A DNA stretch of 64,000 nt, from assembly GCA_007376205.1 (NCBI GenBank), contig VMFU01000001.1, positions 220,661 to 284,660 of the forward strand, in the 5' to 3' direction. Shown here one piece after another: positions 33,637 to 52,443 of the stretch. Each line of letters opens with the position of its first letter. The first letter of the stretch is position 1. The notes beneath the pieces are model-generated. The model saw nothing but the letters and a program-made list of their open reading frames with translations, had not been told where the DNA came from and ran no database searches. Origin of the DNA: Candidatus Peregrinibacteria bacterium Gr01-1014_25 (lineage in GTDB: Bacteria; Patescibacteriota; Gracilibacteria; Peribacterales; Peribacteraceae). The position numbers and the translations under genes were made by a program.

Positions 33637-34262
33637 ATTTGCCAAGCACAGCCCGGCAGATCGCACACCAAGAGTACAGACACACATTCGTTCTTTTCTC
33701 TCTAGCACATCCACACACAACGAATCGTCCCAGGCGCGGCTTGGGACACCGGCTCCGGAGCCACCATATGAAAAGCATCAGAGGAACAAGAAGAACCGAT
33801 ACACCGACCTTTGACACCATCGCATCGCAGAGAGGGTAGCGGACAGCGTGCTACGCGCGTTCCTCCCCAGCCAATCATTGCATTCTTGCACAATTCTGGA
33901 GCCAGGCACGTGACCCGTGCCGCTGGACGCTCCTCTCTCTGCTCCATGAATTTCACGCGGTGCGGGCAGAGGTTCGTCCCGCCGCGTGTGCCCCTTCCTC
34001 CCCAGTGTTCCCCTTCCCTCCTTGAGGGTCGTGGCGGACCGGTCCGGGGACCTCGGTGCGGTGCCGAGGAGAAACAAGACACCGGAATGGGGCAGAGACC
34101 AGGGTAGCCTCACCCGTGTCCTGCATCCTCGCGGTGCAGGGCAACCCGCGCGCCTACGGCGCGCGGACCCCCCTCTCGGCCGCGGCTCTTGGCTCACAAA
34201 AAGCCCTGATAGCCCCCGAAGGGAACATCAACACAAAGACCGGCCACTCCGGTCTTTTTGTT
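33637..34262 (+). ncRNA. Candidate structured non-coding RNA of unknown family
   Basis: Promoter-like TTGCGT-16-TATGAT at 33603-33630, multiple GC-rich hairpins, terminator at the 3' end, no convincing ORF. Confidence 0.4.
34236..34262 (+). terminator. Rho-independent terminator
   Basis: aaagaccgg-ccact-ccggtcttttt. Confidence 0.85.
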
Positions 34263-34305
34263 ATGCCTTTTTACACCGCCCGCCTCTCTATACTATGGAA
34301 TCGTC

Positions 34306-37300
34306 ATGCCCTTGCGGCGCCTTGCCCAAATCGGGATCGCTCTTTTCCTCCCCATTGTTTTTTTGACGCTCGCCACAGAGCATGGCGGGAAACGGTTTCT
34401 GGGAGCGAGCGGCGGTGGCGACCAGAGCGTGGGGACTGATGGAGGAGGACAGGTGAATGAGTGGTGCTGTCCGCAAGGATGCTACAACCCCGACCCGACG
34501 CTCGATCCTCCGTGCAATCTCTTCGGTCCGAGTCAGTGCAGTTTGATTCCCGCTCCCCCGACGGAGCAAAGTGCCTGCAAGTACTGGGTGTGCCAGGGAT
34601 GGGACGCGATAACGGGTGGCCCGGCATGCAACGCGTACTGCAATGCGCAGCCACCGATCCCGTACTGTCCCGGCGCGGGTGGGGGCGTCGGCACGAACGC
34701 GGGTGATGGCGGGGCGAACGCAGGAGGCATCGGCGGGTCTTCTACAGGCGGTGGAACATCAACGGGAGGCGGCACTTCCGTCGGAGGGGTGTCCTCGGGG
34801 GGCTTTGCGTCCTCCGGGATTTCTACGTCTCCCAGTACGTCATTGCCTGGTGGGACATCTTCCCTCTCTTTTTCAGCGGTGTTCTCTTCAAGTAGTGCGA
34901 CCTCCTCAACGACGAGCAGCGCGTCCAGTCAGTCCGTCGGCCCCGGATATGATGTCCCGTGCAATCCCACGGAGTGGTACGCCTGTGAAGTGCCCGAGGA
35001 AGGCGCACCGTACTTCGGCATGTACATCGAACATCGCTTCCCCAAGGATCGCGGGCCGACCGTCACGGACGAAATGCGCGATTTTCTTCAGGAGCACGGC
35101 AACGCGGGCTTCGGTCCCTGCATGGTCGATACCTTTCCTCCGGAGGTTCCCCTGTGGCCCCTGTGCTTCGAAGGCCGCACGTTTGGATTGGGAACGGGAC
35201 AAGTAAAAGAGTATTTGGATCGCGGGGCGACGCTCGGCGCTTGCCAGCCGACTCCCGATTGCCCCGGCGTCGATTTCCAATGTTTCACCGATGGTCCGAT
35301 CTTCATACAGGCAGCGGGCATTGCGCCGGAGTATCCACTCGTCGATAACGATCCTCCGGACGGTATACGCGGGGTGTATGACCGAGGCGACGCCGATCCA
35401 CTGCCATCGCTCTGGAACATGGTACGCGGATCGGGTCAGTGGAATGGTCCCCCGCAAGGCATCGAACCTTCCGATAAGAAGGTGTATGTCCTCGACTACG
35501 ATCCCAAGCTCCCGCACATGCGCGCCTACAAGGAGCCGATACCGACGCCCATTGGTCACTACGTCGACGACCAGGCGGAATTGGAGGGTTTCCCGGGGGC
35601 GACGCGCGCACTCCGGTACAGCGAGAATGTCTGCACTCCCACACAACCCAATAGCGGGGCGCTGTCGTATCTCACAGAGCCCACGGACGTCACCGAAATT
35701 GCGTGGCTGCCCGGCCGGGGGTTGGCTGCCCGGCTGGATGCGGACTTCGTCGATGACTGTTCTGCACGTCATGGGCATTCGGACTACTTCGCGATCGTCG
35801 CGGCATGCCGCGACGCCTACCGGTGCGGCGAGGGCGTGCTCCACCTCGCCGTGGATGCGAACGGAGAGAACGCCATGGTGAAGCTCCTGGGATTCGGCGG
35901 AGAGGAGCTCGCATCCATGAAACTCCCCGGCGTCTACGAACCCGCAATGGCGGTCGATGCCGATGGCAGGCCATACGTGCTGCAGGTTCCTGATGGCAAG
36001 ACGGTCAACCTCCTGCGTCTTTTTGAGGGCGGAACGCTTCTTGGTGCCACGGGGTTGCCGCGCGGCGTGGACTCGATGACTTTCGCTCCGGACGGCACGC
36101 TGTACGCCATGCATTCACGCCGCCGCACGCTGTACCGCATCGACGTGGTGACGGGCCGCGCCACAGTCGTTCACGAATTCAAAGACGGATTGCAGCTAGC
36201 CGGCGGCGATATTGCCTTCGATGACAACGGTCGCCTCTTCTACCTTGGGCTCTCCCTTGAGAAGGCGCCTGTCAATGTCCTGTACGAGGTCAACCTCACA
36301 ACATTCAGGATCACGAAGATCGGGACGCTTCCGAAAGGAATTCACGACGGCCTCGCTTTCGTCGGATACAGCCGGTTCCTGACGGCAAACGTGACGGAGA
36401 AGCATATGGCGCGCATCACCGTTGACCCGTGGAGGGTCGACAACCTAGCGAGCGCCGAAACCGGCGATGCCGCCGATTGCGCAACATGTCCTCCCGCGCC
36501 CCTGCCCGGCGGAAGTTCGACGAGTACCTCAACATCCCGGACATCCTCCACCTCGTCGCACGTTGATAGTACGACCAGCGCATCATCGACCTCCGGCCCG
36601 ATCGTCGCCACGACCAGCGCGACGTCTTCTTCTGGCAACCTGGACTCCACCACGAGCGCATCGTCCACCTCCAGGGTGATCGTACCTTCCTCGACTGCTC
36701 CCTCGACCGCTACCTCAAGAGTCTCCTCGCAGAACAGCGCATGCGCATTCTGTCCGTCGGGGCAATGTGTGAACGGTCAGTGTCTGTGCAAAGACAGTAC
36801 GCAGTGTCCCGCAGGCAAGAAGTGCATCAATGGCAGGTGTGGGTGTACCGACAATGCGCAGTGCCTGGCAGGACAGCAGTGTCAGGACGGAAAGTGCGTG
36901 TGCATCGACGTTCTGAACTGTCCTCCGAAGCAATGCTCCACGGACAAGGATTGCCCGGCGTACTACGCATGCCGCGACGGTCTCTGCAAGGCGATGGCCT
37001 GCTCGGGCCTCGAATGCGCGAGCGGAGGCAGCGCACTCTGCGCCGCCGCGGGCAAGATCTGCCTGCAGTACTCCACGCCGCCCTGCGCGGTGTGCGGCGG
37101 TGAAACGCGCGAACAGGCGCTCGCCGACATCGTCCTGCAGCAGGCCTTCTGCGGCAACGGCCGCATTGAGGTGGGGGAAGAGTGCGACGACGGCAATGCT
37201 CGTAACGGCGATGGCTGCTCCGCGTTCTGCGGCAAGGGAGATGAGAATCCCCCTTTGTCGTCCGTGCTTGAAGGTATGCGCCAACAGAGCGGCATTGCCC

Positions 37301-37500
37301 CCAGGCTGGGCATGCGCGAGTTCGTCTTCGGCCGCGCCGCCGCGCCGCTCCAAGGAATGGTCGCGGGATCATCGACCCGGGAATTCTTGCCTGCGCCGAT
37401 GCACGCTCCCGTCGGCGACACCGGCCCTGCAGCCGTCGCCGTCATGGCCGCAGGCGCGGCGGCAGGCTGGTCATGGGTGCGGAGACGGAGGAGGCGATAA
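34306..37500 (+). CDS. Large Cys-rich surface/secreted protein with Ser/Thr-rich linkers and C-terminal anchor
   Basis: N-terminal hydrophobic segment, Gly/Ser/Thr linkers, CxxxxxCxxGxC modules, CGNGRIEVGEECDDGNARNGDGCSAFC (DUF4215/Myxococcus Cys-rich type), C-terminal TM and RRRRRR. Confidence 0.85.
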   Translation: MPLRRLAQIGIALFLPIVFLTLATEHGGKRFLGASGGGDQSVGTDGGGQVNEWCCPQGCYNPDPTLDPPCNLFGPSQCSLIPAPPTEQSACKYWVCQGWDAITGGPACNAYCNAQPPIPYCPGAGGGVGTNAGDGGANAGGIGGSSTGGGTSTGGGTSVGGVSSGGFASSGISTSPSTSLPGGTSSLSFSAVFSSSSATSSTTSSASSQSVGPGYDVPCNPTEWYACEVPEEGAPYFGMYIEHRFPKDRGPTVTDEMRDFLQEHGNAGFGPCMVDTFPPEVPLWPLCFEGRTFGLGTGQVKEYLDRGATLGACQPTPDCPGVDFQCFTDGPIFIQAAGIAPEYPLVDNDPPDGIRGVYDRGDADPLPSLWNMVRGSGQWNGPPQGIEPSDKKVYVLDYDPKLPHMRAYKEPIPTPIGHYVDDQAELEGFPGATRALRYSENVCTPTQPNSGALSYLTEPTDVTEIAWLPGRGLAARLDADFVDDCSARHGHSDYFAIVAACRDAYRCGEGVLHLAVDANGENAMVKLLGFGGEELASMKLPGVYEPAMAVDADGRPYVLQVPDGKTVNLLRLFEGGTLLGATGLPRGVDSMTFAPDGTLYAMHSRRRTLYRIDVVTGRATVVHEFKDGLQLAGGDIAFDDNGRLFYLGLSLEKAPVNVLYEVNLTTFRITKIGTLPKGIHDGLAFVGYSRFLTANVTEKHMARITVDPWRVDNLASAETGDAADCATCPPAPLPGGSSTSTSTSRTSSTSSHVDSTTSASSTSGPIVATTSATSSSGNLDSTTSASSTSRVIVPSSTAPSTATSRVSSQNSACAFCPSGQCVNGQCLCKDSTQCPAGKKCINGRCGCTDNAQCLAGQQCQDGKCVCIDVLNCPPKQCSTDKDCPAYYACRDGLCKAMACSGLECASGGSALCAAAGKICLQYSTPPCAVCGGETREQALADIVLQQAFCGNGRIEVGEECDDGNARNGDGCSAFCGKGDENPPLSSVLEGMRQQSGIAPRLGMREFVFGRAAAPLQGMVAGSSTREFLPAPMHAPVGDTGPAAVAVMAAGAAAGWSWVRRRRRR

Positions 37501-37553: not shown

Positions 37554-38195
37554 ATGCTCGAGCAACTCACCGCGACTGCCGGCGATCTGATTCACACCTA
37601 CGGCGTTCTCGGCGTGTTTCTGGCGAGCATCGTCGAGGAGGTTATCGCGCCCATTCCCTCCGCGGGCGTCGTCCTGCTGGCGGGCTTCCTGCTGATTCCG
37701 CCGGAGGCGACGTGGACCGCCGCGGCCGCGGCCGCGGCGGTGAACGTGATGATCCCCGCGTCGATCGGACTCACTGTCGGATCGCTGTTCCCGTACGGCG
37801 TCGCCCGCATCGGCGGCAAACTCGCCGTCGACAAGTGCGGCCGTTTGCTGGGCATCGACTGGTCCTTGGTCGAACGGGCCCAGGCGCGATTCACGCGTTC
37901 GCGCTCCGATGAACTGCTGCTCTTCGGTGTCCGGTGCGTACCCGTCATCCCCTCCGTCGTGATCGGCGTGCTGTGCGGCCTCGTGCGATTGCCGCTCCCG
38001 GAATTCATCCTTTTCACGTTCCTCGGCAGTCTCGTGCGGACGTTCATTCTCGCGCTCGTCGGATGGTCCGCAAGCGCGGCGTACAGCGCGTACGCCGAGC
38101 AGTTTTCCCGTGGCGAAGACATCGTGCTCGGCATCATTGCCATTGCGATCGTTGCCTTCGCGCTCCGATGGCACAGCAAGAGAAAGCAACGATGA
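37554..38195 (+). CDS. DedA/VTT family membrane protein
   Basis: FLASIVEEVIAPIPSAGVVLLAGF and VRCVPVIPSVVIGVLCGLVRLPLPEFILFTFLGSLVRT. Confidence 0.88.
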   Translation: MLEQLTATAGDLIHTYGVLGVFLASIVEEVIAPIPSAGVVLLAGFLLIPPEATWTAAAAAAAVNVMIPASIGLTVGSLFPYGVARIGGKLAVDKCGRLLGIDWSLVERAQARFTRSRSDELLLFGVRCVPVIPSVVIGVLCGLVRLPLPEFILFTFLGSLVRTFILALVGWSASAAYSAYAEQFSRGEDIVLGIIAIAIVAFALRWHSKRKQR

Positions 38196-46367: not shown

Positions 46368-46429
46368 AAGTAGTGCTGGGTAGACGGTGCGAGGGGATGA
46401 AAAGGGATGCGCACGGAGTATGTTCTCTC

Positions 46430-49030
46430 ATGGGGATTCGTTATACTTCCCTTCTCGTGCGACGACGTTTCATCAGCATCGGATGCGTCGGCGCCGCTGT
46501 CGTCGTGCTATCGCTGTTGCCCATCGAGTCACAGTCTCCGCGCCAGCACAACGTCAGTCGGACGTCATCGCTGGGCGTATTGACGCAGGAGCATCTGTCG
46601 TGGGGCGCGCGCTACTCATTCGCAGAGCCGATTGATGCCGTCAGTTTCCGCATGCCACAGAATTTGCAAACGGCCGCCGTACGAGGATGGACAGGATCGG
46701 GTTGGACGGGCTGGGAGGCTTTGGCGGTGGAGACGGAGTTCGATCCGCTCCTCACGGAGTCCAACCTCGTGATGTTTCCCGCCGGCGTACGCATCGTGGA
46801 ATTGCAGTCGCCGTTGGCACTGGAGATGCATCCACTGACGGTTGCGCATGACCCGCCGCGGTACGCCGTTGCCGCGCGAACTCCGTCTGTGCGCCCGCGC
46901 ATTCTCTCGCGATCCGAGTGGGGTGCCGACGATACGTTCCTCGTCCGCGGTCCCGACACATCGCGTTCCGATGTGCCGTCGACGGGCGAGGACGTCGTGC
47001 AGCAGCGGGAAGCGAACGGAACGGCTGTGGAAACGCCGTCGCAACGCATCGTCGATTGTGAGCAGGCGCATCGCAACTACCCGCAGGAATTCAAACCCGC
47101 GAAGACGGTGCGCACGCTTCCATCGGGTGGAGCGCTGCGGTGGCCGCAGCAGTACTCCAAGGAAGTACGCATCCTTGCCGTGCATCACACAGCCATCGCC
47201 GTGCACGGCGACAGCCGTCCCGCCGCGGAGCGCGTCCGCGCACTGTACGCGTACCACGCCAACAATCGCGGCTGGGGCGATATCGGCTACCACTTCGTCG
47301 TCGACGAAGACGGGCAGATCTACGAGGGGCGCGCCGGCGGAAAGGGCGTCGTCGGCGGGCATGCCTACTGTAACAACGTCGGTTCCATCGGCATCGCGCT
47401 CCTGGGGAACTTCGAACTGGAGCAGCCGACGCAGAAGCAGGTCGCCGCGTTGCAGTGGCTTCTCCACTCTCTTGCGATGACGTACGACATCGACCTCGCC
47501 TCTTCCGTGCAGTTCCATGGCAAGGCGATGCCTCCGATCGTCGGGCACGGCGACCTGGTGTCGACGACGTGCCCGGGGTTCTACATGCGCGAGGTGATGA
47601 CGCAGGTGCGTCGCAACGTCCGCGTTGGCGACATCGACGTGAGAGTGTCCTTCCCGAAGCTGCCGAAAGCGTCACTGAAGAAGCGTGCGCCGTCACGCGG
47701 TACGGCCCGGCCCGCGCAGCGGCCGCCGGGAGTCGAAGGCGTCTCGCCGATGGGCACGACGTTTCTGCAGGGGCATCCCGGATCGCAGACGCTCATTGCG
47801 TTGCGTTACCAGGCGGGCGACCATGCGACGAAATCTCATGAAGAGGTTGCAAAGGTCGACAGGACGGACGGCTCTACCGGCGTGTGGCAGGACATCGGCG
47901 GCACGTTCGAACGCGTACGCGACGCACTCGTCACGTCCGCGCCTGTTCCGTCCCGCGGGACGGTGCTGCTGCGGGTGAAAGTGCAATTCCCCGATGTCGC
48001 AGGCAGGAGCACGCTCACCATCGGCTCCGTGACGTATGTGCTCGAAACCAGCGGCCGTCCGCTGCGCGCGCCGTCCGCGAGGCCGGCGAGCGCGACGGGT
48101 TCATCGCCGATTCAAGAGCGTCCCGCGCTGTCCACCGCCCGCACACGCCCAGCCAAGCACCCGCGCAGCGGCGGATCCGCGACGCAAGCAAAGAGCGCGG
48201 CAGACGGTCCCGACGTACGCATCCGTTTGAGCGTAGCGGGCGACGACGCGCGGCTCACGGCGCCCGCAGGCACCCGCATCGGCCGTGAGCGTCTGTCCGC
48301 AGTGCAGCTGGAACTGCACCGCAATGGAACGGTCTGCACGGCGTCGCAGGGGGGACGCACGCTTGCGAGAGGCATCGTGCGGATCGAGCCTCCCGCGGGG
48401 GGCATCGTCAGCATCGACAGCGGGGAGAAGGAAGCGCGGCGATTCCGCGGGACAATCGAATGCCGCGTGATCGACAGAGCGATGGTGCTCATCAACGAAC
48501 TGCCGCTTGAGCAGTATCTCTACGGGCTCGCCGAAGAACCCGACAGCGAGCCGTATGAAAAACAGCGGGCATTCGCGATTGCGGCGCGCAGTTACGTGAT
48601 GCACTACCTCAATCCCGATATGCGGAAGTTTCCCGGGAAGCCCTACGACGGCAGCGACGATCCCGCCGTGTTCCAGGCGTACGGCGGCGTCCTGCTGGAA
48701 GAGCGTAATCCGCAGTGGATGCGCGCGGTAAAGAGCACGCGACTGACCGTTCTCACCGTCGGCGGCGACATCCTCCGCGCGGCGTACTTCTCCGCGAGCG
48801 ACGGCAAGACCCGCTCGCCGGCGGAGGTGGGATGGCCGAATTTTCCTCATGCGGAAGTATTCACGAAGAAAGCCGATCCCTGGTGTAGCGGGCAGGGGCG
48901 CCGCGGTCACGGCGTCGGCATGAGCGGGTGCGGCGCGGAAGGCCAGGCGAACGAAGGCAAAACTGCGGAAGAGATTCTCGCCTACTATTACAGCGGCGCC
49001 ATGCTCAAGCGCCTGGACGAGGTTCGCTGA
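46430..49030 (+). CDS. PGRP-type N-acetylmuramoyl-L-alanine amidase fused to SpoIID-like domain
   Basis: AVHHTAIA...GWGDIGYHFVVDEDGQIYEGRAGGKGVVGGHAYCNNVGSIGIALLGNF...VGHGDLVSTTCPG; SpoIID: INELPLEQYLYGLAEEPDSEPYEKQRAFAIAARSYVMHYL...GHGVGMSGCGAEGQANEGKTAEEILAYYYSGA. Confidence 0.92.
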   Translation: MGIRYTSLLVRRRFISIGCVGAAVVVLSLLPIESQSPRQHNVSRTSSLGVLTQEHLSWGARYSFAEPIDAVSFRMPQNLQTAAVRGWTGSGWTGWEALAVETEFDPLLTESNLVMFPAGVRIVELQSPLALEMHPLTVAHDPPRYAVAARTPSVRPRILSRSEWGADDTFLVRGPDTSRSDVPSTGEDVVQQREANGTAVETPSQRIVDCEQAHRNYPQEFKPAKTVRTLPSGGALRWPQQYSKEVRILAVHHTAIAVHGDSRPAAERVRALYAYHANNRGWGDIGYHFVVDEDGQIYEGRAGGKGVVGGHAYCNNVGSIGIALLGNFELEQPTQKQVAALQWLLHSLAMTYDIDLASSVQFHGKAMPPIVGHGDLVSTTCPGFYMREVMTQVRRNVRVGDIDVRVSFPKLPKASLKKRAPSRGTARPAQRPPGVEGVSPMGTTFLQGHPGSQTLIALRYQAGDHATKSHEEVAKVDRTDGSTGVWQDIGGTFERVRDALVTSAPVPSRGTVLLRVKVQFPDVAGRSTLTIGSVTYVLETSGRPLRAPSARPASATGSSPIQERPALSTARTRPAKHPRSGGSATQAKSAADGPDVRIRLSVAGDDARLTAPAGTRIGRERLSAVQLELHRNGTVCTASQGGRTLARGIVRIEPPAGGIVSIDSGEKEARRFRGTIECRVIDRAMVLINELPLEQYLYGLAEEPDSEPYEKQRAFAIAARSYVMHYLNPDMRKFPGKPYDGSDDPAVFQAYGGVLLEERNPQWMRAVKSTRLTVLTVGGDILRAAYFSASDGKTRSPAEVGWPNFPHAEVFTKKADPWCSGQGRRGHGVGMSGCGAEGQANEGKTAEEILAYYYSGAMLKRLDEVR

Positions 49031-49058: not shown

Positions 49059-50465
49059 ATGGGTTACCTCGAGAGCGCTTTCCTCGGTGCGCTGCAGGGC
49101 GTCACGGAATTTCTGCCGATCTCCAGCGACGGGCATCTCGTCGTGGCCGAGGCGCTCGCGGGTGTCAGCTTGCAGGGGCGCGATGCGTTGGGATTCGACA
49201 TCCTCCTGCACGCGGGGAGTTTGCTCGCGCTTCTCCTATGCACGGGAAAACAGTGGATCGCGCTCCTGCGTGATGCCATTGCCGATGCCGACGACGCGCG
49301 GCGGATGCTTCTGCTCATCGTCGTCGCGACGGTCCCCGGCGCGATTGCCGGCCTGTTCTTTGCCGACGCCGTTGCGCAGATGCGGTTCCTGCCCGCCGCC
49401 GCCGCGGGGTTTGCGGCGACGGGATTCGCGCTCCTCATCGGCGAGCTCGCCGGCGGGAACCGTGCTCCCGCGCAGCGACTCCAGTGGGAACTGCGGTGGT
49501 GGATGGTGTTTGCCATCGGTCTTGCGCAAGCCCTCGCGCTTCTGCCGGGCGTGTCGCGCTCCGGATCGACGATCGCCGTGGGGATGATCCTGGGTCTCTC
49601 GCGGCGCGACGCGTTCAGCTTCTCCTTCCTCATGGCAGCCCCCATCCTCGCGGGCGCCATTGGCAAGAACATCCTGGACGTCGCCGGCGGCGTGGTGACG
49701 CTGCCCCCCGCTTCGGTGAGCGTGGCGGGATTCGTGGCGGCGACGATCGTCAGCGCCGGCGCGTACCTGCTGCTGCGCACGTGGGTCACGCGCTTGAGCC
49801 TCTCGTGGTTTGCGTTGTACCTCTTCCCCCTCGCGCTGGTTCTCCTGTGGATCGAAATCGGGATGCCGCACACGTTCGAAGCCGCCGAAGCGCGCGTACT
49901 CCTGGAGCGCTACGGCGCGATGGCCGTCTTCCTCTTCGCCATGCTGGAATCCACGCCGCCGTTCAGCGTGATCTCGCCGGGCGTGGTCGTGATGCTGCTC
50001 GCGGGAGCGGTGGCGGGCGATCTTCGTCTGCTCATGATGTTCGCCGCAGCGGGGGCGGCCGGCGTCCTCCTTCCGAGCGTGACATTCTACTTCCTCGGCG
50101 TGCAGTACGGCCGTTCCATCGCGCACCGTTTCCATCTGACCGACTCCGCCCTCTCGCGCGCCGAATCGCTGTCGGTACGTTACGGCGGAGCGGGGGTCAT
50201 TATCGGGCAATTCATCGGCCTTGCCCGCCCGGCGGTGGCGTTCATCGCCGGCACCGTGCGCCTGCGCAGGCGGGTCTTCCTCCCGTGCGCCGCGCTCGGA
50301 GCCATCTTGCTGCCCAGCGCCTATCTGGGCCTCGGCTATCTCTTCCGATCCAACCTGGATGTCGTGATCCCCGTCGTGACGCTCGGCGGAACGGCGCTCG
50401 TCATTCTCACGTTCCTCTTCGGCGGAGCATGGGGCGTCGGCAAAGCAATCGCGCGCCGCCGTTGA
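49059..50465 (+). CDS. Undecaprenyl-diphosphatase (BacA/UppP) fused to DedA/VTT domain
   Basis: BacA motifs LQGVTEFLPISSDGHL and LLPGVSRSGSTIAVGMILGLSRRDAFSFSFLMAAP; C-terminal DedA-like FLFAMLESTPPFSVISPGVVVMLLAGAVAG...GQFIGLARPAVAFIAGTVRLRRRVFL. Confidence 0.88.
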   Translation: MGYLESAFLGALQGVTEFLPISSDGHLVVAEALAGVSLQGRDALGFDILLHAGSLLALLLCTGKQWIALLRDAIADADDARRMLLLIVVATVPGAIAGLFFADAVAQMRFLPAAAAGFAATGFALLIGELAGGNRAPAQRLQWELRWWMVFAIGLAQALALLPGVSRSGSTIAVGMILGLSRRDAFSFSFLMAAPILAGAIGKNILDVAGGVVTLPPASVSVAGFVAATIVSAGAYLLLRTWVTRLSLSWFALYLFPLALVLLWIEIGMPHTFEAAEARVLLERYGAMAVFLFAMLESTPPFSVISPGVVVMLLAGAVAGDLRLLMMFAAAGAAGVLLPSVTFYFLGVQYGRSIAHRFHLTDSALSRAESLSVRYGGAGVIIGQFIGLARPAVAFIAGTVRLRRRVFLPCAALGAILLPSAYLGLGYLFRSNLDVVIPVVTLGGTALVILTFLFGGAWGVGKAIARRR

Positions 50466-50540: not shown

Positions 50541-50768
50541 ATGACAACGACGGTCGTCCTCCGTAATTCCATCCGGCGTCTGCGCTTCGAGCACAACATG
50601 ACTCAAGAAGAACTTGCGCTGCGCACGGGCGTGAGCCGTCAGACGATCATGAGCATCGAGCGCGGAGAGACGAATCCGTCCGTTCTTCTGGCCCTGAAAA
50701 TCGCATCGGCATTCAGCGTGCCGGTGACGGATGTGTTTGCAATGGAGGGCAAACTGGCGCCGGTGTAG
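50541..50768 (+). CDS. XRE-family HTH transcriptional regulator
   Basis: IRRLRFEHNMTQEELALRTGVSRQTIMSIERGETNPSVLLALKIASAFSVPVTDVF. Confidence 0.92.
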   Translation: MTTTVVLRNSIRRLRFEHNMTQEELALRTGVSRQTIMSIERGETNPSVLLALKIASAFSVPVTDVFAMEGKLAPV

Positions 50769-52443
50769 CCACGGGGACGGAGAGTGAAACGGCCGACCGC
50801 AGATCGTCCACGATCCACTGCGCGCGTTCTTTGCCGTTCCACTGGTTGATGCCGAGTCGTGCGATGACATCCACGGCGTGCGTAAGATGCGGTAGCGTGC
50901 GGCCCAGGCCGAAGCCGATCGCGCCGATGCCTGCGAGACCGGCTTGCAGGTGACGTCCATCGCCGCCGACGAGGCGCGCATGCTCCAGCGTGACTTTGCA
51001 TAGGAGGAAGCGCGGTTCCGGATTGCCTTCGCCAAACGGTTCCAGGGTGGAGAGCGTGCGGGCAAGCGCCGCATTGGCAAGGCGGGGATCGATCGCAACG
51101 TCCGCGCAGCACGCGGGCGAGCGCCGGTCGATCGGAAGCAGCGCGTCGACGTCCGCGTGCACGGCATCGGCAACATCAGCGAAATGCTCGGCGTGGAACG
51201 TGCAGCCGGCGGCGCGCGCATGGCCGCCGACGGAGGAGAATCCCCCGCCGCCTCCTTGAAGAAGGCGTTCGTGGCAACGCCGCAGCACGGCGATGATGTC
51301 GCATCCCGGAGGGCTGCGCAGCGACGCGGTGCAAAGGCCGCCGTGGATCGTGCCGACGAGCGCGGGCTTTCCCGTGCGTTCTGTGATTTTGCCGGCGAGC
51401 AGGCCGAGCAACCCATGGGGATACCGCGCGTCGGCAATGCACACACAAGCCTGGTCGTGAGCGCCGGCAATCGCCGCGTCACAATCCTGCAGGAGTGCCT
51501 CGGTCTGTTCCTGGCGCGCCGCGTTGAGGTGTTCCAGCGTGTCCAGCGCGGCGGCGTCGCCAAGGAGCGCGCGTAGGGCGATGTGCGGATCGTCCATGCG
51601 GCCCGCCGCGTTGATCCGCGGCGCGATGCGGTAGGCGATGTCCTGTGCGGTGAGTGGACCATTCCCGCCCAACGTGCGCTGCACGAGCAGCGCGAGGGGC
51701 GCATCGGCGTCGATCCGATGGATGTCCGCCAGAGCCGAACGTACGAGCGCGCGGTTACCACCGAGGAGCGGTACGACATCGGCAACGGTGCCAAGCGCGG
51801 CGAGCAGACGATCCTCCGCTTCACCAATCCATGTGTCACCTTCAACGCGGCGCACGAATGCGTAGACAATGCCGGCGGCGCTGGGATGGGGTTCGGACAA
51901 ACCCGCGAGCGCCGGGTGCACGATGGCCGTGGCGTTGGGAAGCTGTGTCGGCAGCGCATGATGGTCGAGGATGATCACGTCCATGCCGCCCGCCCGCGTC
52001 GCTTCAATGGCAGCAAGCGCCGTGACGCCGGTATCGGCCGCGATGAGCAGTCCGACGCCGGCATCGATGCAGGCCGCCACGTGCGATGGATGCAGGCCGT
52101 AGCCGTCGCGAACGCGATGCGGCAGCAGGACCGTCGGTTCGCAGCCGTGGCGCCGGCAGCACCGCACGAGCTGCGCAGCGGAGGTGATGCCGTCGCAATC
52201 GTAATCACCGACGATGCCGATGCGTTCGCCCGCGTCCAGCGCCGCACGCATCCGGGTCGCAGCCGTCTCGATGGCCTCGCCCCATGCATCGTCAGCCCGC
52301 GTCTCCTGCGTCGGGTCGATGCCGCGCAGGCTCAAAAGCGCCTGGAGCACGGCATCATGCGATGAGAGCATCGGCGCGCCTTCATCGATGGTCACTCCCG
52401 ATCGCCACACCCAACGTTTGCCGGTGAGGGAATGCCGGGACAT
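50713..52443 (-). CDS. recJ: Single-stranded-DNA-specific exonuclease RecJ
   Basis: IGIVGDYDCDGITSAAQLVR, IILDHHALPTQLPNATAIVHPAL, GGNGPLTAQDIAYRIAPRINAAGRMDDPHIAL. Confidence 0.95.
   Translation of the reverse strand: MSRHSLTGKRWVWRSGVTIDEGAPMLSSHDAVLQALLSLRGIDPTQETRADDAWGEAIETAATRMRAALDAGERIGIVGDYDCDGITSAAQLVRCCRRHGCEPTVLLPHRVRDGYGLHPSHVAACIDAGVGLLIAADTGVTALAAIEATRAGGMDVIILDHHALPTQLPNATAIVHPALAGLSEPHPSAAGIVYAFVRRVEGDTWIGEAEDRLLAALGTVADVVPLLGGNRALVRSALADIHRIDADAPLALLVQRTLGGNGPLTAQDIAYRIAPRINAAGRMDDPHIALRALLGDAAALDTLEHLNAARQEQTEALLQDCDAAIAGAHDQACVCIADARYPHGLLGLLAGKITERTGKPALVGTIHGGLCTASLRSPPGCDIIAVLRRCHERLLQGGGGGFSSVGGHARAAGCTFHAEHFADVADAVHADVDALLPIDRRSPACCADVAIDPRLANAALARTLSTLEPFGEGNPEPRFLLCKVTLEHARLVGGDGRHLQAGLAGIGAIGFGLGRTLPHLTHAVDVIARLGINQWNGKERAQWIVDDLRSAVSLSVPVATPAPVCPPLQTHPSPAR

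Follow-up and report, generated by a model that had tools for sequence, protein, structure and literature searches.

Can a single polypeptide both hydrolyse the carrier lipid C55-PP and take part in returning the product, C55-P, across the membrane? The question is raised by a gene at 49059..50465 (+) of the window, the stretch of 64,000 nucleotides analysed here from Candidatus Peregrinibacteria bacterium Gr01-1014_25 (contig VMFU01000001.1), which had been predicted from its letters to join a BacA/UppP phosphatase to a DedA/VTT domain. The proteins that return C55-P have been clarified only recently. Four residues, E39, D51, R130 and R136, are reported to be essential in YqjA, YghB and UptA. 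DedA and DUF368 proteins flip C55-P (PMC9876793, PMC12826051). DedA-PAP2 and DedA-rhodanese fusions have already been described (PMC10127716, PMC9876793, PMC12893004); for the DedA-PAP2 proteins, dephosphorylation followed by flipping was considered a possible role (PMC10127716). Neither a BacA-DedA nor a DedA-BacA fusion was found described in the article texts searched.

The gene is a single intact ORF of 468 aa with an ATG start, and its translation contains no internal stop. Residues 7-260 (49077..49838, +) match the BacA/UppP profile (PF02673, E=4.6e-57), with a score of 194.1 bits against a curated cut-off of 33.4. When the entire 468-aa protein was scanned with Pfam, PF09335 was not reported, which means that automatic annotation could miss the DedA half (residues 273-468, 49875..50462, +). 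Scanned alone, these C-terminal 196 aa gave a VTT_dom match over residues 307-427 (PF09335, E=2.3e-8) whose 35.0 bits narrowly exceed the cut-off of 33.9, and a whole-genome scan likewise placed a match above cut-off at 49977-50339 of the window. The NCBIfam UptA model matched residues 282-434 (E=2e-5), far under its equivalog cut-off, and the BacA half also scored under the NCBIfam equivalog cut-offs. BacA and VTT were the only domains recovered by the Pfam scans of the fusion protein, with no PAP2 domain. The original prediction of an N-terminal BacA of about 270 aa with both signature regions, followed by a DedA of about 190 aa, was thus borne out, but the second domain is a divergent member. 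From the sequence, we regard it as nearly certain that BacA and a divergent DedA/VTT domain follow each other in one chain.

Full-length homologues were found in four further genera of the same family (identity of 42% in G003, 40% in G030, 42% in G214 and 31% in G209). Among the four closer fusions, pairwise identity was 43-63% for the BacA halves and 37-56% for the DedA halves, which points to constraint on the DedA half and to similar rates of change in the two. The fusion adjoins an Hsp20-like gene in three relatives, two of which have recJ on the opposite side and one also a galU-like gene. In the window it adjoins a convergent recJ (50713..52443, -; RecJ_OB/DHH), the same neighbor as in L002 and L084, and the Hsp20/galU pair lies ~10 kb off, beside a stand-alone DedA gene. 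Forward fusions, with BacA first, were present in 5 of the 353 genomes of the class (G209 included), and a survey of 380 genomes from across the phylum revealed none in other families. Plasmid records gave 234 BacA matches, none covering 80% of the query and none of fusion length. A long BacA ORF in G235 was rejected as a fusion, its C-terminal stretch being soluble-looking and not DedA. At L075:898-2208 (+), a BacA is extended at its C-terminus by ~170 aa that are unrelated and apparently soluble.

The BacA half has the features expected of the enzyme. Its first motif, QGVTEFLPISSDGH (49095..49136, +; Q13, E17, S23, H26), aligned with E17, E21, S27 and H30 of E. coli BacA, and its second, PGVSRSGST (49545..49571, +; S166, R167, T171), with PGFSRSGAT of the same protein. 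In this alignment all catalytic positions are filled as in E. coli BacA; Q13 stands against E17 of the E. coli protein, a Q that is also found in nearly all relatives. The solved BacA structure PDB 5oon was matched both by sequence (E=1.1e-28) and by the fold of the model (TM(target) 0.82, E=6e-10). SSDGHL in place of SSSGHL had been pointed out as a deviation. The letters were read correctly but are no oddity, as the D aligns with T in E. coli BacA and with S, T or D in relatives, and the stand-alone BacAs of G035 and G009 also carry SSDGHL. This ordinary variant of the clade, at a variable position, was therefore rejected as the mark of an inactive enzyme. In its full domain, both motifs, catalytic residues and fold, the half resembles BacA/UppP (PF02673; E. 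coli BacA, PDB 5oon/6cb2), from which the fusion differs by the additional ~190-aa DedA domain.

The DedA half departs further from its model. Aligned on and numbered by E. coli YghB, it keeps E39 as E297 (49947..49949, +) and R136 as R390 (50226..50228, +), whereas D51 is replaced by V309 (49983..49985, +) and R130 by Q384 (50208..50210, +). It therefore reads E/V/Q/R and departs from the canonical COG0586 set of E39/D51/R130/R136, with its R-F-x-P-type motif reading GQFIGLARP. The Q noticed earlier where R is usual is this R130 position, to which the change of D51 to V has to be added. The counterparts of E39 and R136 are retained in all five forward fusions; the D51 position holds V or I in four and F in the fifth, and the R130 position Q in four and G in the fifth. 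The quartet E/V(I)/Q/R is thus common to the fusions of G000, G003, G030 and G214, and G209 reads E/F/G/R. In the model of B. subtilis UptA, R118 (= R136) is bonded to E32 and R112 (= R130) to Q64, and single mutants of E32, R112 and R118 lowered C55-P binding by just 27-30% (PMC11474028). The fusion appears to retain exactly the R118-E32 pair, provided that E32 is the counterpart of E39, and we infer that the remaining half-set of residues may suffice for function.

Folded on its own, the DedA half reached a pLDDT of 75 and a pTM of 0.69 with three sequences in the alignment. In the full-length model its pLDDT was ~40-50, too low for that model to show how the two halves are placed relative to each other. 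In BFVD, the DedA model drew "SNARE associated Golgi protein" entries as three of its four best matches, with weak E values of 0.16-0.82 against viral models. A PDB fold search gave no match among solved structures, and a sequence search of the PDB returned no DedA either.

On the DedA tree, the DedA halves of the BacA-DedA fusions group together (97/82) with one stand-alone protein of G026 (E/G/Q/R). They are part of a larger, well-supported group (100/96) that also takes in DedA-PAP2 proteins and their kin and stands apart from the canonical E/D/R/R DedAs; the E. coli COG0398 proteins YdjX and YdjZ group elsewhere. Two sets of known proteins can be compared with the fusion. It shares the VTT domain, the re-entrant-loop motifs, E39 and R136 with the DedA/UptA C55-P flippases (COG0586; YqjA, YghB, B. 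subtilis UptA), and differs from them by D51 to V, R130 to Q, a weak score and the joined phosphatase. DedA-PAP2 proteins such as P. aeruginosa PA4011 also have DedA joined to a lipid-phosphate phosphatase, and the DedA halves form related groups; in the fusion, however, the phosphatase is BacA, of an unrelated enzyme class, and lies N-terminal rather than C-terminal of DedA. Three DedA-PAP2 proteins of same-family relatives (L038, L039 and L040) have a long additional C-terminal part. A stand-alone DedA at L042:1261-1926 (+) has the altered motif of the fusion type (SPGG, GQFVGAVRP) and could be a progenitor or a product of gene fission. In genomes of family f14, of the same class, in-frame TGA codons occur within DedA genes, which, taken with the size of the window's genome (~1.1 Mb), points to Patescibacteria of the Gracilibacteria/Peribacteria kind.

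A second family of the class, f9, encodes a mirror-image fusion, with DedA first, in 17 of its 18 genomes; the frames measure 415-451 aa (for example L026:1489-2763, -, and L028:1012-2292, +; also L076-L082). Outside f9, none was seen among the same 380 genomes across the phylum. The DedA half of this reverse fusion reads E/D/G/F, keeping both acidic residues and having G and F in place of the arginines, and most f9 members conserve a TPIPFK motif. A tree constrained to hold the DedA halves of the forward and reverse fusions in a single clade was rejected (p-AU 2e-53), from which we conclude that the two types arose independently. The two proteins are alike in having the same two domains in one chain, which measures about 425-430 aa in f9, and differ in their order, origin and DedA type (E/D/G/F with TPIPFK in f9). 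In five f9 genomes of 86-95% completeness (G342, G054, G344, G347 and G348), the DedA-BacA protein was the only VTT-domain protein found, and DUF368 was present in only two of the 18 (G350 and G351).

On the BacA tree, which bears on how the forward fusion came about, the closest partner of the window's BacA is the stand-alone protein of G035 (100/91), followed by the one of G009, and not the BacA half of another fusion. Monophyly of all five fusion BacA halves was weakly rejected (p-AU 0.018; 0.039 without G209). This tree, in which several branches are long, fits two histories: an old fusion that lost its DedA half repeatedly, or joining on more than one occasion. A likely pre-fusion state is offered by G403, G391 and G434, from three families of the phylum, where BacA and a canonical-type DedA abut in the same frame with exactly one stop codon between them (L128:2214-3644, +; L129:1844-3304, -; L130:2622-4037, -). 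These "full-length" matches were rejected as fusions, being two separate genes, and a single mutation could fuse them. More generally, a DedA gene lies within 1.5 kb of 15 of the 50 distinct unfused BacA genes of relatives.

The window's genome (~1.1 Mb, 99.9% complete) has the BacA of the fusion as its sole BacA, and a profile search of the genome returned no PAP2 above the cut-off. The fusion is therefore the only recognised C55-PP phosphatase of the genome, by predicted activity. A PAP2 candidate, L036, was rejected because it fell below the cut-off and the ORFs read at the locus are not PAP2-like. UppS is present in one copy. DUF368 was absent in the profile search, and the second, stand-alone DedA of 213 aa (37554..38195, +; PF09335 E=2.8e-14) reads E/A/R/S, keeping R130 and lacking D51 and R136, which leaves the genome without a recognised canonical C55-P flippase. 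Probably, although not certainly, C55-P is flipped by one of the two non-canonical DedAs. The residues lost and kept by the stand-alone protein are roughly complementary to those of the fusion, which keeps R136 and has lost D51 and R130. Upstream of the fusion, on the same strand and ending 28 nt before it, lies a gene of 885 aa for peptidoglycan remodelling (46373..49030, +; Amidase_2, PF01510, E=9e-20; SpoIID, PF08486, E=5e-11). Further upstream, 34258-37500 (+) encodes a Ser/Thr- and Cys-rich protein of 1080 aa whose hydrophobic segment at the C-terminus precedes Arg; it is probably a surface protein.

What could such a protein do? In the reading that we favor, and whose chances we judge to be about even, the fusion would be a tethered C55-PP phosphatase and C55-P handling or translocation unit that couples the steps of carrier recycling. 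At the outer face of the cytoplasmic membrane, the BacA half would hydrolyse C55-PP, yielding C55-P, and the adjacent DedA half would bind the released C55-P through its retained E297/R390 pair and help to bring it back to the inner leaflet for use by MraY-type enzymes. Tethering would keep dephosphorylation and flip-back at 1:1 and near each other. UppP itself has been proposed as a C55-P flippase (PMC9876793, PMC12826051), and its re-entrant structure resembles that of DedA (PMC7818093), so the two halves may be mechanistically closer than their names suggest. The loss of D51 and R130 points to a translocation or hand-over step that is modified and may not be proton-driven, rather than to a copy of UptA/YghB. 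That the fusion may couple C55-PP dephosphorylation to carrier recycling was part of the original prediction, and comparative genomics partly supports it: two independent fusions in opposite orders and the frequent neighborhood of BacA and DedA speak for coupling, whereas a DedA half that lacks two of the four residues and groups with PAP2-linked DedAs is a doubtful candidate for a working C55-P flippase.

The main doubt on this relay comes from that same loss and kinship. PA4011 did not rescue the loss of PA4029, the true flippase of P. aeruginosa, and was judged likely uninvolved in flip-back (PMC12893004). It is a serious, if less probable, possibility that the DedA half is an accessory, which would hold or sense C55-P(P), serve dimerisation or position the phosphatase, while another protein does the flip-back. 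Both D51 and R130 are gone from every forward fusion, the nearest kin are PAP2-linked, and G003 and G030 each have, in addition to the fusion, a stand-alone DedA with the canonical E/D/R/R, so that the fusion need not be the flippase there. On the other side, E39 and R136 are retained, the DedA-BacA protein is the only VTT protein found in the five f9 genomes, and in the window's genome, with its E/A/R/S second DedA and no DUF368, some non-canonical protein presumably flips C55-P.

Tethering could also bring no gain, the two halves working independently after a neutral joining of neighboring genes. The abutting pairs that one mutation would fuse, and the stand-alone BacAs placed among fusions on the BacA tree, which make tethering look dispensable, agree with this. 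We consider it unlikely, however, as joining occurred twice independently and in opposite orders, the second time in nearly a whole family, and the DedA type of the forward fusion differs from the E/E/R/R of the abutting DedAs. More improbable still is that the DedA half moves another lipid, by phospholipid scrambling or by transport of another phosphorylated lipid, the fusion serving membrane lipid balance. Lipid flipping or scrambling is the common trait of the superfamily, and groups without the acidic/arginine set are thought unlikely to be C55-P flippases (PMC10127716), but the partner here is a C55-PP phosphatase, R136 is kept, and YdjX and YdjZ group elsewhere. An assembly or frame artefact, for which one could cite the draft assemblies of the relatives in many contigs and which the original prediction had named as a danger together with a C-terminus lacking DedA by HMM, can practically be dismissed given the VTT match above cut-off, the intact ORF, the in-frame full-length homologues of four further genera in independent assemblies, with neighbors shared in three, and the 17 reverse fusions.

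Coming back to the coupled phosphatase and translocation unit, one may go a step further and propose, tentatively and with the greater weight of probability against it, that C55 phosphatase-flippase relay proteins with BacA evolved at least twice, in opposite orders, and that hand-over of the substrate within the chain freed their DedA halves from the canonical arginine/proton motif. If this is true, the D51/R130 pair would prove dispensable for C55-P translocation as such. The missing pair makes the fusion a direct test of which residues are needed for flipping. Being single chains, such fusions also lend themselves to joint measurement of phosphatase activity, C55-P binding and flipping. Natural fusions of a phosphatase with DedA, made twice and in opposite orders, are evidence for a functional link between the two steps that is independent of mutant phenotypes.
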